Under the pieces are notes generated by a model. That model saw only the letters and a program-made list of their open reading frames with translations, was not told the origin of the DNA and searched no databases. Below are positions 1-10,171 of a stretch of 36,476 bases of DNA, piece by piece. The stretch's first letter is position 1; each line of letters starts with the position of its first letter. Position numbers and translations under genes: made by a program. Source of the DNA: Chlorobiota bacterium (GTDB lineage: Bacteria > Bacteroidota > Chlorobiia > Chlorobiales > Chlorobiaceae); contig VGGK01000021.1 in NCBI GenBank assembly GCA_016868665.1, positions 1-36,476 on the forward strand, given 5' to 3'.

Positions 1-115
1 TATCAGGTGTGCCGTGTTGCACGCAAAGACATGTTCAAAAGGGTAAAACGGTAACTCAGCAGGAGCTGGTCGGTAGTTTTTTATCGGCTGAGGTGGCCTG
101 CCGGATGGCTATCGC

Positions 116-790
116 TCAACTCAGGTTGAAGAAATGCTTTTTAGCCGCTTCTACCTGCTGCTTGAGGAGTTCGGGTTTCTGGGCGCGATACTGTTTGCCG
201 GTGAAGTTCGGGGTAACGCAGAAGGAGCAGTTGAAGGGACAGCCGCGTGTGACGTAGATCGGAATGGATTTCGTTCCGTCTACCTTTTCCCGTTTCGATA
301 CCTTCGCGATCCGTTCATAGTCGATCGGGGTGATTTCCTTGACAGGAGGGAAATCCTTTGAATTGTATGAAGGCTTGAGCCTGTTGCCGGCTACGTCGTC
401 AAGCACGGTCGTCCACAGGTTGTCGGCCTCTCCGACGACAATGCTGTCGGCATGTTTTGCTGCCTCTTCGGAGTTGAAGGAGATGTGCAAGCCTCCGAGG
501 ATGACCTTTTTTCCGTGAGCCCTGAAGGTGTCGGCGATTTCATATGCCCTTGTGGCTTCGAGCGTCCGGGCTGTGATGCCGACAAGATCGTATTTTCCGT
601 CATAGTTTATCGGATCGTGAAAGTGCTCGTCAATGAGCTCTATCTCATGCTGGGGCGGTGTCAGGCTTACCAGAACAGCCAGAGCCATATGGAACAGGGG
701 TTTCTGGTTGCTGTCGTCATCCATTTTGCCCTGGGGTGAAATAAGGAGGATTTTCAGGGGTCTTGTCTCTTCTGGTTTCAGCATGTACAT
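116..790 (-). pseudogene. bchQ: Truncated B12-dependent radical SAM methyltransferase, bchQ-like
   Basis: The reading frame shows a cobalamin-binding-type domain (about residues 10-125, with a GGLHISF stretch) and the start of a radical SAM domain carrying the CxxxCxxC motif (CPFNCSFC). It stops about 38 residues after that motif, at TGA 116-118. The family normally runs to roughly 450-550 residues, so most of the SAM barrel is missing. I read the other two minus-strand frames to position 1 and found no continuation, so a simple frameshift does not explain it. The bchQ assignment rests on adjacency to bchV, which is the arrangement I recall in Chlorobaculum tepidum (CT1777 next to CT1776). 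BchQ methylates C-8(2) of chlorosome bacteriochlorophyllides. The start may be ATG at 790 or 784; neither has a clear ribosome site. Radical SAM/B12 family is near certain; bchQ identity and loss of function are probable. Confidence 0.7.
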
Positions 791-1243
791 CCGGTGAAAC
801 AAACAAAAGTTGAATAAAACTCTGATGGAACCCGGTAATACAAATTGACGTAAGAAGGATTCCTGTTTCAGCTCAGCCTGTAAAGGGTACCTCTCAAAAC
901 TTATTACGCGACCCGATTGCTGCGTTGGGCGGTACTCGAAATCCTCATGTACTCTGTGTACATTCCGGTTTCTCCGTTCCGTCCGCCTTGCACACGGACC
1001 GCTCATCACACTTTTTAGAGGTGCCCTAAAGATAGGTCAATTTTCCGGAAAAAAAAGGCGCTCTCTGTACACATTTGGCCTCTGCCTCCGAAATACGTCG
1101 GGAATTCGAAGATTATTTACAGGAGAGACCCCGCTTTTTCTCTCTCTTTCATTTTAGTATATTCCATGCTTCAAGTTTTGATGCGTCCTGATTGATTTCG
1201 ATTACGGGCGCGGATTTTTTTCATCCGAAGAATAACTGTTTTT
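791..1243. other. Divergent intergenic region between bchQ remnant and bchV
   Basis: This 453-base stretch separates two divergent pigment genes and must hold their promoters. About a third of it is the palindromic element at 884-1027. The rest is A/T-rich near bchV (for example the A-run around 1050-1058). The frame upstream of 790 stays open on the minus strand to 1009, but that part is the palindromic element and has no protein character, so I do not extend bchQ into it. I could not assign a convincing promoter. Confidence 0.6.
884..1027. repeat. MITE-like 144-bp imperfect palindrome with terminal inverted repeats
   Basis: The left end (884-899) and right end (1012-1027) are inverted copies of AGGGNACCTCTNAAAA, matching at 14 of 16 positions. 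At the centre is a perfect 6-bp inverted repeat, ATGTAC (947-952) and GTACAT (958-963), with a 5-base loop. Between the ends and the centre the two arms still align by eye (shared CGG-AC, AAA-CC and similar blocks), so the whole unit folds as one long imperfect hairpin of 69 and 70 bases per arm. There is no open reading frame of its own and no obvious flanking target-site duplication. It resembles a miniature inverted-repeat transposable element or dispersed structured repeat. Copy number cannot be judged from this window; I saw no second copy here. Confidence 0.65.
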
Positions 1244-1717
1244 ATGCCTCGTTATACTCCCGAACAGCTCGCTAAACGAAACGCATCGATCTGGACTGAT
1301 ATACAGATCATTCTCGCTCCCATACAGTTTCTGATTTTCGTATCCGGTGTCGCAATTACCGCGTTGTACGCGAACGGACTCTTCATTACAGACTTTTACT
1401 GGATCAGTGTGGCCATTCTTTTTAAAACTCTGTTTTTTGCGCTGCTGTTCATTACCGGCATGTTTTTCGAAAAGGAGATTTTCGATAAATGGGTCTACTC
1501 GAAAGAGTTCCTCTGGGAGGATATCGGAAGTACGATAGCAGCGGGATTTCATCTGCTCTATTTTGTGCTGGCTTTTCTTGGCTATCCCGAGGAAGTCCTG
1601 ATCTGGGAGGCTTTTCTTGCGTATTTCACGTATGTGATCAATGCGCTTCAGTATCTGGTGCGCATTATACTTGAAAAATACAACGAGCGCAAGCTCAGAC
1701 TTGAAGGTACTATCTGA
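1244..1717 (+). CDS. bchV: 3-vinyl bacteriochlorophyllide hydratase BchV (BchF/BchV family)
   Basis: This 157-residue membrane protein matches the BchF/BchV hydratase family in length and pattern. It has an N-terminal [10 protein letters not shown] segment, an APIQFLIF first helix, a [10 protein letters not shown] motif after helix 2 and a WED motif before helix 3. Four membrane helices are visible, at about residues 22-44, 50-75, 97-115 and 120-145. The family adds water to the C-3 vinyl group of (bacterio)chlorophyllide to give the 1-hydroxyethyl group needed for chlorosome pigment self-assembly. Green sulfur bacteria carry both bchF and bchV; I choose bchV because of the bchQ-like neighbour. 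BchV is described as favouring highly alkylated C-8 substrates, which makes its retention beside a broken bchQ notable. No strong Shine-Dalgarno precedes the ATG. Family is confident; the V rather than F assignment is inferred from context. Confidence 0.85.
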
Positions 1718-1762
1718 GCTTTTCGGTTTCAACATAACCTGATTGATCAAGGCTGACGATCT

Positions 1763-1978
1763 ATGAAGTACACTTTTACTACCCTTTGGAACGTAACATT
1801 TCTTTTCGTAGGACCTCTCTGGTTCATGCTTGCATGGATGATCTGGTCATCCGGACAACTGCAGACCGTTGGCGACCAGATGACCTATCTCGCAGTAGTC
1901 GTTCCCGGATTTATAGTCATTTACCTGTCCGGTTTTTTCATTGAAGGGTGGCATAAAAAGAAAAAATCGAATATGTGA
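1763..1978 (+). CDS. Small two-helix membrane protein, unknown function
   Basis: The 71-residue product has two hydrophobic segments, at about residues 8-27 and 38-58, and ends in a basic tail (HKKKK). This suggests a helical hairpin with the C-terminus in the cytoplasm. An AAGG about 11 bases before the ATG could serve as the ribosome site. It starts 45 bases after bchV with no terminator between, so it is probably cotranscribed. I do not recognise a family. Its place between a membrane-bound pigment enzyme and the aldolase fusion could mean a pigment or membrane accessory role, but nothing in the sequence proves this. The frame is likely real because it fills the gap, is hydrophobic in a structured way and has a usable start. 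Confidence 0.6.
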   Translation: MKYTFTTLWNVTFLFVGPLWFMLAWMIWSSGQLQTVGDQMTYLAVVVPGFIVIYLSGFFIEGWHKKKKSNM

Positions 1979-2066
1979 TACAGCTGATCGGTCTGAAAGG
2001 AAACAAGAGGATCCCCATTCTAATTTAACCAGCCGGCAACCGGTAATAAAGAAGCAGTAGTTACTC

Positions 2067-4184
2067 ATGCAAAATCTCTGGAACAGCGCCGATTTTCAGC
2101 GCTCTGTAGATCGTCAGCTCAGCGATAACGAAATTCCTGCAGAACTTGCGGAACTGGTTTATGCATCCCGTCTGCTCGGGAGCGAAAGTTCTCTGGTGAT
2201 GCACGGCGGAGGCAATACCTCGGTAAAGAGCGAATTGCGCGACATAATCGGTAACAGTGTGAATGTCATTTTCATCAAGGGCAGCGGCGTTGATCTTGCC
2301 GCTCTCGATGCTCACGATTTTACGCCTGTCCGCATAGATCCGCTTCGCAAACTCCAGCATCTTTATGCCACTGGCAAGCGGCATAGCGACGACGATATAC
2401 AGCAGTTCTCGACAAGGGAGTTCAAAAACTTCCTCTATCTGAATCTTTTCTACCTGACCGATCACATGGTGAAAAATTCGCTTTCACCCTCGATCGAGAC
2501 CATGCTTCACGCTTTTCTTCCGCACAGATTTATTTTTCATACGCATGCAACGGCCCTTCTGACGCTCAGCAACCAGCCGGATGGGGAAGCGCTTTGCCGG
2601 GAAACCCTCGGGGATCTGTTCGGCACGGTTCCCTACATCAAGCCGGGTCTCGGACTTGCGCATTCGGCTGCCGAAGCTTACGGGCGCGATTCCGCGATCA
2701 GGGGTCTGGTGCTGCACAAGCACGGTCTGGTCACCTTTGCCGATTCCGCGGCCGAGGCCTACGGTTTCATGATAGAAAGCGTCACAAAGCTTGAGGAGCG
2801 TATAGCCCGCTCGGGGAGAAAGCGATATGCGGCAGTTCCGCTTCCCCCGGTTGTTGCTTCGCTTGAGGACGTCGCTCCGGTAATCAGGGGAGCGGTCGCC
2901 GAAGAGAGAAGTCCGGGCTCCAGGCAGTACGATCAGTTCGTGCTGGATTTTCGCTCATCTCCGGATATACTGGATTACGTGAACAGTCCGGATCTTTCGG
3001 AAGTGAGCGGAAGAGGCGCCATGACCCCCGATTTCATTATCCGCACAAAGAATCGTCCGCTTGTAGTTCCAGCACCCGACGCAGCAGACATCGAGGGGTT
3101 CAGGAACGTTGTCCGTGCCGCTGTTGAAAGGTATAAGGAGGAGTACACGGCTTATTTCGAGCGCCAGAAAGAGGCTTCCGGCATGCAGGTGACGATGCTC
3201 GATCCTCTGCCGAGGGTGGTGCTTGTACCGGGTCTCGGGCTTTTCGGTCTTGGCCGGACAGCGAGTGCTGCTGCGGTCAATGCAGATATTGCAGCAAGTA
3301 CCGCATCTGCCATTCTGGACGCCGAGTCGGCAGGACGGTTTGAGTCCATAAGCGAGCGCGATGCGTTCGATATCGAGTACTGGGAGATGGAGCAGGCCAA
3401 GATGAATAAGGTCCGTCACGATGTGTTTGCCGGAAAGGTCGCTCTGGTTACCGGTGCGGCAAGCGGCATCGGACTGGCCACGGCCAGGGCATTCCGGCAG
3501 CGGGGTGCCGAGCTGGTGATTCTCGACCTTAACCCCGATGCGCTGGAGCTTGCGGCCAGAGAGATTGGCGAAGACGTGCTTGCCGTAGCCTGCGACGTGA
3601 CCGACCGCAATGCTGTGCGCAGCGCGTTCGATTCGGTCTGTCGCCGTTTCGGCGGGGTGGATATCGTGGTATCGAATGTCGGCGTGGCTCTTCAGGGAAG
3701 GATCGGCGATGTGGCCGACGATCTGCTTCGCAGGAGCTTCGAGCTCAACTTTTTTTCGCACCAGTCCATTGCCCAGGAGGCGGTAAGAATCATGCGTCTG
3801 CAGGAAACGGGAGGGGTTCTGCTTTTCAATGTCTCGAAGCAGGCAGTAAATCCGGGACCTGATTTCGGCCCTTATGGCCTGCCGAAAGCCGCGACCATGT
3901 TTCTTGTCCGCCAGTACGCACTCGATCACGGACGCGACGGCATAAGGGCGAACGGTATCAATGCCGACCGCATTCGTACAGGTCTTCTGACCGAAGAAAT
4001 GATAAAAACCCGCTCCAAAGCCCGGGGGCTCAGTGAGCGGGAGTATATGGCCGGCAATCTTCTGCAGGTTGAGGTTACCGCCGAGGATGTTGCAGAGGCC
4101 TTTGTGCACCAGGCGCTCGAAACGAAGACGACCGGCTCGATCGTCACGGTCGACGGCGGCAATATCGCAGCCGCGCTTCGTTAA
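2067..4184 (+). CDS. Bifunctional class II aldolase / short-chain dehydrogenase fusion
   Basis: The 705-residue protein joins two enzymes. Residues about 1-260 form a class II (zinc) aldolase domain: HGGGNTS for phosphate binding, a probable catalytic glutamate near E144, zinc ligands in the HTH motif at 158-160 and a further histidine near H217. Residues about 455-705 form a Rossmann short-chain dehydrogenase with TGAASGIG near 460 and a YGLPK catalytic motif near 600. The middle is a linker or accessory region. Such fusions resemble the RhaD/alcohol-dehydrogenase family, where a ketose-1-phosphate is cleaved to dihydroxyacetone phosphate plus an aldehyde and the aldehyde is then oxidised or reduced. 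The real substrate is unknown. It lies upstream of the LsrF-like gene by 61 bases and belongs to the same colinear block as the RubisCO-like gene. Domain calls are secure; the reaction is inferred. Confidence 0.9.
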   Translation: MQNLWNSADFQRSVDRQLSDNEIPAELAELVYASRLLGSESSLVMHGGGNTSVKSELRDIIGNSVNVIFIKGSGVDLAALDAHDFTPVRIDPLRKLQHLYATGKRHSDDDIQQFSTREFKNFLYLNLFYLTDHMVKNSLSPSIETMLHAFLPHRFIFHTHATALLTLSNQPDGEALCRETLGDLFGTVPYIKPGLGLAHSAAEAYGRDSAIRGLVLHKHGLVTFADSAAEAYGFMIESVTKLEERIARSGRKRYAAVPLPPVVASLEDVAPVIRGAVAEERSPGSRQYDQFVLDFRSSPDILDYVNSPDLSEVSGRGAMTPDFIIRTKNRPLVVPAPDAADIEGFRNVVRAAVERYKEEYTAYFERQKEASGMQVTMLDPLPRVVLVPGLGLFGLGRTASAAAVNADIAASTASAILDAESAGRFESISERDAFDIEYWEMEQAKMNKVRHDVFAGKVALVTGAASGIGLATARAFRQRGAELVILDLNPDALELAAREIGEDVLAVACDVTDRNAVRSAFDSVCRRFGGVDIVVSNVGVALQGRIGDVADDLLRRSFELNFFSHQSIAQEAVRIMRLQETGGVLLFNVSKQAVNPGPDFGPYGLPKAATMFLVRQYALDHGRDGIRANGINADRIRTGLLTEEMIKTRSKARGLSEREYMAGNLLQVEVTAEDVAEAFVHQALETKTTGSIVTVDGGNIAAALR

Positions 4185-6565: not shown

Positions 6566-7390
6566 ATGGAAAAACTTTCGGGCAAGGTGGCGGTCATTAC
6601 CGGATCGACAAGGGGCATCGGCAGGGCTATCGCCTGCAGGTTTCTCGATGAAGGGGCTTCGGTGGTCATAACCTCGTCTTCACAGTCGAATGTTGATGCG
6701 GCTCTTGCGGGACTCTGCCGGGAGCGCGTCTTCGGTCATGCCTGTGATGTGACTTCACTTTGCGAAATGGAGCAACTTGTCGAAGTATCGGTCGAAAGAT
6801 TCGGCAGGATCGACTGTTTTATTAACAATGCGGGCATATCGGAACCCTTCGGTCCTCTGTGCTCAGGCGATCCTGTTCTGTGGAGCAGGGTCATCGATAC
6901 GAACCTGAAAGGCACCTGTTACGGATGCCGTGCGGCTATCGCATATTTTCTCCGGGAGAATGTTCACGGAAAGATCATCAATATGGCCGGTTCCGGTACC
7001 GATCGGGACTCGAATACCCCGTTCATCAGCGCATACGGATCGACGAAAGCCGCAATCGCGCGATTTACCTACGCTGTCGCAGCGGAGTATCGACAGACCC
7101 CGATCTCGATAATGCTGCTGCACCCGGGTCTTGTGCGCACCGGTATGGTAAGTGCCGAAAATCCGACTCCCGAGTTATCCCGGCAGCTTGCAACCTTCAA
7201 CACCATTCTCGATATTTTCGCCCAGCCGCCTGATGTCGCGGCATCCCTTGCGGTAAAGATGGCTTCCGGCTGGAGTGACGGTAAAACGGGAGTATACCTT
7301 TCCGCGCTGGACGGGTGGGCAAAAAAGAGGTTGCTCGTTACCTATCCCTTCCGTAAACTGACCAACCGGATTGACCGGAGAACCTGTTAA
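6566..7390 (+). CDS. Short-chain dehydrogenase/reductase
   Basis: A classical SDR of 274 residues: nucleotide-binding TGSTRGIG at 12-19, NNAG at 87-90, and the catalytic set S143, Y157 and K161 (YGSTK). It should oxidise or reduce an alcohol/carbonyl pair with NAD(P)(H) in the cytoplasm. The C-terminus from about residue 250 is rich in basic residues. It follows the RubisCO-like gene by 35 bases and precedes lptE by 24, so cotranscription is likely. Together with the dehydrogenase half of the aldolase fusion, it gives the cluster two SDR activities. The start at 6566 lacks a clear Shine-Dalgarno but begins exactly where SDR homology begins. Substrate unknown. Confidence 0.92.
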   Translation: MEKLSGKVAVITGSTRGIGRAIACRFLDEGASVVITSSSQSNVDAALAGLCRERVFGHACDVTSLCEMEQLVEVSVERFGRIDCFINNAGISEPFGPLCSGDPVLWSRVIDTNLKGTCYGCRAAIAYFLRENVHGKIINMAGSGTDRDSNTPFISAYGSTKAAIARFTYAVAAEYRQTPISIMLLHPGLVRTGMVSAENPTPELSRQLATFNTILDIFAQPPDVAASLAVKMASGWSDGKTGVYLSALDGWAKKRLLVTYPFRKLTNRIDRRTC

Positions 7391-7414
7391 CCACTCTAGC
7401 AAACGGAGAGATCC

Positions 7415-7936
7415 ATGCGATACGGCCGGTTTAAACGTGTTTCGATCTGCCTCGTTCTGCTTATTCATGCATTTCTGTTTCAGGGATGTTACAGTTTCAG
7501 CGGAGGATCGGTTCCGTCACACATGAAAACTGTTGCGGTGCCGGTATTCCAGGATCAGTCGCGTGCCGGTATTGCCGGTTTTCGCGCAGAACTTACCAGG
7601 AAGCTGACGCAAAAGCTCGAATCTCAAAGCCCGCTTCGATTGACGCCCTCTCGCGTCACGGCCGATGCGCTTCTTGAAGGCACCATTCTTTCTTTCAGTG
7701 ACGAACCGAGCCAGCTCAGCAGCTCTACCGAACGCGCACTGACCAACCGCATTACCATTACTGTTCAGGCGGTTTTTCAGGATCGTGTTAATAAAAGCAT
7801 TCTTTTTGAGCGAACAATCGCGGGGTTTGCCGATTATACAGCCGGAAGTTTTTCTGCACAGCAGGACGCGATATCACAGTCGCTCGACATGATTGCCGAT
7901 GATATACTTGACGCAGTCGTCTCCGACTGGCGTTAA
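7415..7936 (+). CDS. lptE: LptE-family outer-membrane lipoprotein
   Basis: The 173-residue precursor has an N-terminal basic stretch, a hydrophobic signal and a lipobox-like LFQGC with the lipidated cysteine at C25. The mature start, CYSFSGG followed by a KTVAVPVF strand, is the pattern of the Bacteroidetes/Chlorobi LptE family. LptE plugs the LptD barrel and helps deliver lipopolysaccharide to the outer leaflet. A GGAG 6 bases before the ATG (7405-7408) is a good ribosome site. It is the last gene of the plus-strand block and is followed by a strong hairpin at 7972-8020. Its functional link to the enzymes upstream is not obvious; it may simply share the transcript. The lipobox residue at -3 is phenylalanine, slightly atypical. 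Confidence 0.82.
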
Positions 7937-7971
7937 TCTTATTCAGGGAAGGGCGATGAAGCGGCCGGGAA

Positions 7972-8020
7972 GGTACGAGAGAGAAAAAGACCGGTTGCGG
8001 CCCTTTTTCTCTCTCGTACC
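7972..8020. terminator. Perfect 18-bp hairpin, bidirectional terminator
   Basis: The arms 7972-7989 and 8003-8020 are perfect reverse complements, with a 13-base loop. The stem contains an A-run and a T-run, so transcripts from either direction have U-rich sequence in the stem. It lies between the convergent ends of lptE (7936) and carB (8025), so it probably serves both. Confidence 0.8.
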
Positions 8021-8024
8021 CTGT

Positions 8025-9881
8025 TTATCTTTTCCGGTAAGCGGAGTACTCCTGAAGGCTTTTTACGCCGAATTCCTGGCGGCGGATGCAGTCTATCGCC
8101 TCGACAGATGCGGCTGCTGCTTCGATAGTGGTAACGAACGGTACGTTGCTTTGCACCGATGCAGCTCCTATGGCTTCCTCGTCATGCAGCGCCTTTTCAC
8201 CTCGCGGCGTGTTGATCACGAAATCGATCTTGCCGTGTTTGATGATGTCGAAGATGTTCGGCCGTCCCTCTTCGCCAACCTTGTAGACCTTCTTGCAGTC
8301 GATTCCGTTCTTCGTCAGGAACTGGTAAGTGCCGGCGGTAGCGACAAGGTCGAAGTCCATGCGGTACAGTTCCCTGGCAATTGCAATGATGCGCTGATCC
8401 TTGTCCTGGTCGTTTACACTGATGAACACCGCACCCGATAGCGGCAGGTGCATGTTGGCAGCCTGGTAAGCCTTGGCAAATGCTTCGGGAAACTGCTCGG
8501 CAAGACTCATGGCTTCGCCGGTCGAGCGCATTTCGGGACCGAGGTAGACCCCTGATTTAACGAATTTCGAGAACGGGAAAACCGGTTCCTTGATGGCCAT
8601 GTGCTTCAGGCCGAGTTCATCACAGTCCTTCAGGTCATATTCGGCTCGCAGATCTGACAGCTTCTCTCCGATCATGATACGGGTTGCTATCTTTACGATA
8701 GGTACGGCCGTGGCCTTCCCGACGAAAGGCACCGTGCGGCTCGCTCTCGGGTTGACCTCGATAACGTAGACTTTTTCATTCTGAACTGCATACTGGACAT
8801 TCATAAGACCGATCACCCCGAGATGTTCGGCAAGAATCCTGGTATAGGCCTTCATGGTTGCGATCACTTCCGGGCTGATATTGCGATAGGGAAGGATCGA
8901 TGTTGAATCTCCGCTGTGGATACCCGCGGCTTCGACATGCTGCATGATGCCGCTGATGACGCAGTCTGAGGAATCAGCCAGAGCATCGATGTCGAACTCG
9001 ACGGCTGTTTCAAGGAACCTGTCGATAAGGAGCGGGTATTTTTCAGAGATGAAGAGTGCCTGATCGACGTATTCTTTCAGGGAGTCGTCGCTGTAGATGA
9101 TTCTCATCGCCCGGCCGCCAAGCACATAACTCGGACGAACAAGAACCGGATATCCTATTCGTGATGTGATTGCCTGTGCTTCCTCGAAGCTGATTGCGGT
9201 ACCGTAGTCCGGATGGGGAATGTCGAGTTGTTCGAGAAGAGATCCGAATTTTTTGCGGTCTTCGGCAAGGTCGATTCCTTTCGACGAAGTCCCGAGAATG
9301 GCTACGCCTGCCTCGTCGAGTTTCGTGGAAAGCTTGAGCGGAGTCTGTCCTCCGAAGCTGACGATGACGCCGAGAGGCTGCTCATGTTCGATAATGCGGA
9401 TGGTGTCCTCGAATGTCAGCGGTTCGAAATAGAGCTTGTCGGCGATATCGTAATCGGTCGAAACCGTTTCGGGGTTGCAGTTCACCATGATGGTTTCATA
9501 TCCCGCTTCGCGCAGGGCGAAAACTGCCTGTACGCAGCAGTAATCGAATTCGATACCCTGTCCTATTCGGTTCGGGCCGCCTCCGAGAATAAGAACCTTC
9601 CTGCGGTCGGAACGGACTGATTCATTTTCCTCGTCGTACGTGGAATAGTGATACGGAGTTTTTGCGTCAAACTCGGCGGCGCAGGTGTCGACGGTTTTGA
9701 ATACCGACACTATGCCATATTTTTTTCGCAGTTCTCTTACTGCGTTTTCCGATGTCCTGAAAATATTGGCAAGCTGACAATCGGAAAAACCATGTCCTTT
9801 TGCTTTTCTGAGCGTTTCTTTCGGGAGTTTGCCCTCGAGGATCCGAACCTCTTCAGGCAGGTCGGCAACGTGTATGGTCAT
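8025..9881 (-). CDS. carB: Carbamoyl-phosphate synthase large chain, C-terminal half (split CarB)
   Basis: At 618 residues this corresponds to roughly the second 60% of the usual 1070-residue CarB. It starts inside the oligomerisation domain (FSDCQLANIF segment), then has the VDTCAAEF motif, the GGGPNRIGQGIEFDY nucleotide-binding segment and the second ATP-grasp domain (RPSYVLGG, EVNPRASRTVPF). It ends with an MGS-like allosteric domain (about residues 480-618, including TAGTYQFLTKNGID). This half phosphorylates carbamate to carbamoyl phosphate for arginine and pyrimidine synthesis. The first ATP-grasp half, which makes carboxyphosphate and carbamate, is not adjacent: ribBA is upstream in divergent orientation. 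The ATG at 9881 gives a clean start, so this is a genuine split gene and not a fragment. The partner gene must lie outside the window. Confidence 0.93.
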   Translation of the reverse strand: MTIHVADLPEEVRILEGKLPKETLRKAKGHGFSDCQLANIFRTSENAVRELRKKYGIVSVFKTVDTCAAEFDAKTPYHYSTYDEENESVRSDRRKVLILGGGPNRIGQGIEFDYCCVQAVFALREAGYETIMVNCNPETVSTDYDIADKLYFEPLTFEDTIRIIEHEQPLGVIVSFGGQTPLKLSTKLDEAGVAILGTSSKGIDLAEDRKKFGSLLEQLDIPHPDYGTAISFEEAQAITSRIGYPVLVRPSYVLGGRAMRIIYSDDSLKEYVDQALFISEKYPLLIDRFLETAVEFDIDALADSSDCVISGIMQHVEAAGIHSGDSTSILPYRNISPEVIATMKAYTRILAEHLGVIGLMNVQYAVQNEKVYVIEVNPRASRTVPFVGKATAVPIVKIATRIMIGEKLSDLRAEYDLKDCDELGLKHMAIKEPVFPFSKFVKSGVYLGPEMRSTGEAMSLAEQFPEAFAKAYQAANMHLPLSGAVFISVNDQDKDQRIIAIARELYRMDFDLVATAGTYQFLTKNGIDCKKVYKVGEEGRPNIFDIIKHGKIDFVINTPRGEKALHDEEAIGAASVQSNVPFVTTIEAAAASVEAIDCIRRQEFGVKSLQEYSAYRKR

Positions 9882-10171
9882 GCGGTTTTATTGATTGTAT
9901 ATGCTATGGAATAATACTGTCAGACAAGGTAAGCAATTCACCGGTCGATAAAAAACCGTGGAAAAGATAAAAAAACCGTTCCTTTACAAAGTTTCGGGCA
10001 AATTTTTTTCAGGGGGCAGACCGAGTTCAGGCCAGGGCCGTTTTTCGGGCAGACAGTGGCTTTCCCTGTCATCGGTTCGGGATTTTTATTTACATTACAG
10101 TGTTTTTCTCCGCTGCAGTCTGTTCTGAAAGCGGGGTGTTTCGCGTTATAACCGATGTAAGAAAACCTTTT

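Follow-up and report, generated by a model that had tools for sequence, protein, structure and literature searches.

A putative IS1380-family insertion interrupts the resident bchQ gene of a green sulfur bacterium that probably keeps a second, divergent copy

The truncated bchQ gene and its neighbors

The window, which is the whole stretch of DNA analyzed here (36,476 nucleotides), corresponds to the full length of contig C21 in an assembly of 100 contigs and 2.38 Mb, with an estimated contamination of 2.34%. The features at its left end are the following.

1..125, no strand: insertion sequence end, which a relative places in the IS1380 family and on the transposase-distal side; bears the inverted repeat CCTGAGTTGA at 125-116 and matches the start of contig C1 exactly
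116..125, minus strand: element-made tail of the frame, supplying the remainder of residue 222, then L, S and the stop, from comparison of the frame with the junction
126..130, no strand: 5-bp target-site duplication, TTCAA in the bchQ sense, repeated at C14:127-131
126..790, minus strand: resident bchQ (type A) up to its break, the N-terminal 221 whole codons and 2 further bases, with the B12-binding domain and CPFNCSFC
1244..1717, plus strand: BchF-family C-3 vinyl hydratase (TIGR02020, 202 bits), BchV by its position beside bchQ, in an order that matches type A loci
1763..1978, plus strand: small protein of 71 amino acids, conserved at the bchQ-bchV locus (locus comparison)
2067..4184, plus strand: bifunctional aldolase/short-chain dehydrogenase, conserved at the bchQ-bchV locus (profile and locus comparison)

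The minus-strand frame at 790-116 encodes 224 amino acids, in which a B12-binding domain is followed by the start of a radical SAM domain bearing the CPFNCSFC motif (matches to PF02310 and PF04055, both slightly under the Pfam cut-off). This is the domain order of BchQ, a B12-binding domain and then a radical SAM domain with CxxxCxxC, and the gene is a bchQ by sequence, predicted to encode the C-8(2) methyltransferase of BChl c/d/e synthesis. Intact orthologues in relatives have about 450-520 codons, and their alignment with the window frame ends at residue 222; the final residues N, L and S and the stop at 118-116 are supplied by the adjoining element. An earlier note on this DNA had described a BchQ-type gene broken after its Fe-S motif and shorter than the full-length protein, and the description holds, as none of the minus-strand frames past 116 carries the protein on in an ORF check of the window. 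Since position 1 is the assembled end of the contig, the sequence upstream cannot be read within the window. The gene does not form a full-length frame in one piece, being split by the element.

The order of bchQ, BchF-family hydratase, 71-amino-acid protein and aldolase-dehydrogenase is kept in 18 loci, including those of Chlorobaculum thiosulfatiphilum and Chlorobium sp. N1, where bchQ likewise diverges from the BchF-family gene, and the window locus is the bchQ-bchV locus. In Chlorobaculum tepidum, bchQ and bchV are likewise adjacent. The window gene is 76-94% identical to the type A BchQ orthologues (described below), and it differs from known BchQ genes in being broken after codon 221 by an insertion sequence.

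The interrupting element

Both the missing C-terminal part of the gene and a mobile element, for which the earlier note had proposed a search, were found. The C-terminal half of bchQ occupies the very start of contig C14 (C14:127-873; 85% identical to the intact Chlorobium sp. N1 protein), behind the opposite end of the element whose near end fills the beginning of the window. The inverted repeat CCTGAGTTGA closes both element ends, and in the bchQ sense the junction reads ...CATTTCTTCAA, element, TTCAAGGAAAAC..., which constitutes a 5-bp duplication. When the two flanks are joined after removal of the element and one TTCAA, a single open frame for a BchQ of 468 residues is restored.

C21 and contig C1 begin with the same 127 bases. 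The other element end, which makes up the first 126 bases of C14, recurs exactly at the end of contig C11, as a 94% variant where C20 begins and as a remnant in C25. An exact overlap of 127 bases is presumably the mark of a de Bruijn assembly with k=127 in which contigs enter a common repeat; the assembler thus halted within the repeated element and left the bchQ halves on C21 and C14. Contigs C1 and C11 record a second insertion of the element, in which an SDR gene is split between the start of C1 and the end of C11 with duplication of AAAAA, and joining these flanks restores a 261-residue SDR gene. With two independent insertions that each carry a perfect duplication, neither a deletion nor an assembly error is tenable. 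The earlier suggestion that positions 1-115 form the far side of a deletion or insertion junction therefore stands for an insertion, given the element end and TTCAA, and falls for a deletion, because the other half of the gene is found at the edge of a different contig, following the element's opposite end. The same matching half, together with the inverted repeats and the target duplication, excludes a sequencing or assembly error at 100-120.

Relatives of the element were obtained with the C14-side end and not with the window-side end. They occur in 36 other genomes among the 394 searched, nearly all of the same genus or family. In one of these (G052), the related end (82% identity) is part of a 1751-bp element flanked by a TAAAA duplication, and in another (G053) the related end (84% identity) is part of a shorter form of 1254 bp flanked by TACAA. 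The 1751-bp element encodes a transposase in two frames that matches NF033539 (IS1380 family) and PF13701. Members of the IS1380 family duplicate 4-5 bp of target, and the element in bchQ resembles them in its terminal inverted repeats starting with CCTG and in its 5-bp duplications (TTCAA and AAAAA). Comparison with these relatives thus places the element in the IS1380 family and predicts that the transposase of the bchQ-inserted copy would run opposite to bchQ. This assignment draws on relatives of one end, since the element body is missing from the assembly and a search of the genome's own contigs returned no IS1380 transposase; the copy in bchQ is known from its two ends, as distinct from the complete family members. 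The window-side end retrieved no element body from 65 genomes of the genus, and neither end retrieved one from viral contigs or plasmids. Multi-copy elements are probably often missing from bins.

A second bchQ beside a BChl e-type cluster

Contig C64 carries the C-terminal half of another bchQ, 220 codons with a frame open to the contig edge, which shares only 69% identity with the C-terminal half of the window gene but 77-86% with bchQ from most other Chlorobium. In a tree of 78 sequences, the window gene belongs to a 20-member clade shared with Chlorobaculum and N1 (type A; support 100/98), apart from 41 type B sequences that form a weakly supported group. The C64 sequence lies inside type B, beside that of the brown Chlorobium luteolum CIII MAG, and type B supplies the sole strong match to bchQ in most of the Chlorobium genomes examined.

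In the CIII MAG, a single stretch aligns with the end of contig C4 (97% identity over 5.6 kb) and, after about 1.13 kb that corresponds to a gap in our assembly, with C64 (about 99.5% over 3.4 kb). The start of the type B bchQ, comprising its N-terminal half, falls inside this C4-C64 gap. With 127-base overlaps the missing contig would measure about 1.38 kb, shorter than C100, which at 1503 bases is the last contig and apparently the smallest, so the second bchQ is most likely present; it is likely intact, with its N-terminal half lying in the assembly gap. In the CIII counterpart the frame is broken within a homopolymer run; the break may be genuine or an error.

A split B12-binding radical SAM gene at the ends of C34 and C76 was rejected as the second bchQ, since it is a different paralogue (identity of 41-44% over the N-terminal part, falling to 27% over the C-terminal part). 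These two ends share about 126 bases and then differ, and may represent a second repeat or a strain variant. Elsewhere in the genus, a single contig of one Chlorobium genome carries two bchQ copies separated by about 3 kb (G008:C41, 6790-8199 and 9982-11391), and in another Chlorobium MAG the bchQ frame is broken near the N-terminus (G022:C77, about 2390-2540), which may reflect decay or a MAG error. Searches of two nearly complete genomes of the genus (G001 and G017) gave nothing more than about 42% identical to bchQ, so BchQ may be naturally absent from some Chlorobium species.

This genome carries three genes of the BchF family, one each on C1, C4 and C21; a third such gene is reported in brown, BChl e-making species (PMC7242693). 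The C4 copy is located at the contig end, beyond a 401-amino-acid radical SAM protein, a second copy of the aldolase/dehydrogenase (83% identical to the gene at 2067-4184) and a 513-amino-acid flavoprotein. In brown green sulfur bacteria, the BChl e cluster comprises bciD, bchF3 and cruB (PMC6639628), and the C4 end likewise groups a third BchF-family gene with a radical SAM protein and a flavoprotein, in the region nearly identical to CIII. The third hydratase is certain, and the radical SAM protein and flavoprotein are candidates for BciD and CruB by place and size; taken together, the genes look like a BChl e gene cluster. The arrangement differs from the described cluster in that, on C4/C64 and on the CIII contig, it continues into the second bchQ, which is not listed as a cluster member in the papers examined.

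It is unlikely that C4 and C64 are foreign contigs introduced by binning contamination, in which case the insertion would leave the genome without any bchQ. Such an origin would account for the near-identity of both contigs to the CIII MAG and is compatible with the contamination estimate; moreover, C64 could be contamination because part of it is duplicated on C68 at 73% identity, and a tree of the NDP-sugar gene singled out neither C64 nor C68 as the native copy. However, C4 is 100 kb long, and the tetranucleotide use of C4 and C64 compares with that of the other contigs at 0.92-0.97, whereas CIII's own DNA gives 0.75-0.89. Furthermore, the identity of C64 to CIII (positions 1-3400 against 6694-10100 of the MAG locus) falls sharply to about 65-70% within a nucleotidyltransferase gene, and this departure after 3.4 kb indicates that C64 is not a CIII contig; the drop likely marks the recombination border of a recently exchanged block. 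We hold it quite probable that the second bchQ copy is native to this genome.

Consequences for C-8 methylation

The earlier note had predicted from a natural loss of BchQ that the organism would make only 8-ethyl pigments. The evidence does not support this prediction, given the second bchQ on C64 beside the BChl e-type cluster; the intact bchQ elsewhere that the note named as evidence to the contrary is thus found in part, its first half being unassembled. That BchQ activity is wholly lost, and that the chlorosome pigments are only 8-ethyl, appears improbable to us. The resident gene is broken, the first half of the second copy lies in a gap and the frame of its CIII counterpart is broken; in addition, a bchQ null mutant of C. 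tepidum, which like this genome loses a functional bchQ beside bchV, makes almost only the 8-ethyl,12-ethyl homologue (PMC11873974). Nevertheless, the second gene belongs to the usual Chlorobium clade and retains an open C-terminal half of 220 codons, and while [8-ethyl,12-ethyl] BChl c is the sole main homologue of the mutant (PMC11873974), the organism described here seems to hold another bchQ.

An assembly artefact, in which most cells would have an intact gene that a contig end merely cut, is very hard to credit even though the break falls at such an end, given that opposite element ends, inverted repeats and a perfect 5-bp duplication flank the break and recur independently at the SDR gene, and that a sizeable intact allele should, from assembler behavior, make contigs branch at the gene/element border, where instead they enter the element without a branch, which suggests that the interrupted allele is dominant in the assembled material.

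The reading that we consider probable is that an IS1380-family insertion split the resident bchQ and that the second, type B bchQ keeps C-8 methylation going. The insertion sequence transposed into the type A gene beside bchV just past codon 221, duplicating TTCAA and separating the B12-binding domain and the Fe-S motif from the remaining radical SAM barrel. With most of the barrel cut off, the resident BchQ copy is almost surely dead, and we infer that it is inactive. C-8 methylation would then continue through the type B bchQ beside the BChl e-type cluster, in which case the pigments should still bear propyl or isobutyl groups at C-8. Knock-out of the resident bchQ in a genome with a back-up copy is therefore the most probable reading of the locus.

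A natural enzyme swap can be proposed in extension, toward which we lean slightly: a Chlorobium lineage that holds a mobile BChl e cluster with its own bchQ would have lost the resident bchQ to an insertion sequence, leaving C-8 methylation to be set by the cluster-linked BchQ alone. Literature searches, with a few of the papers examined by term, turned up no account of a natural insertion in bchQ. The locus illustrates that an insertion event can be read from a gene cut short at a contig end, and that predicting a phenotype from such a gene requires the rest of the genome. The mechanism of the insertion is ordinary; its context, with two divergent bchQ genes, the resident one knocked out and a BChl e-type cluster alongside the other, makes it a useful natural experiment, in which pigment analysis could reveal the role of the BChl e-linked copy.
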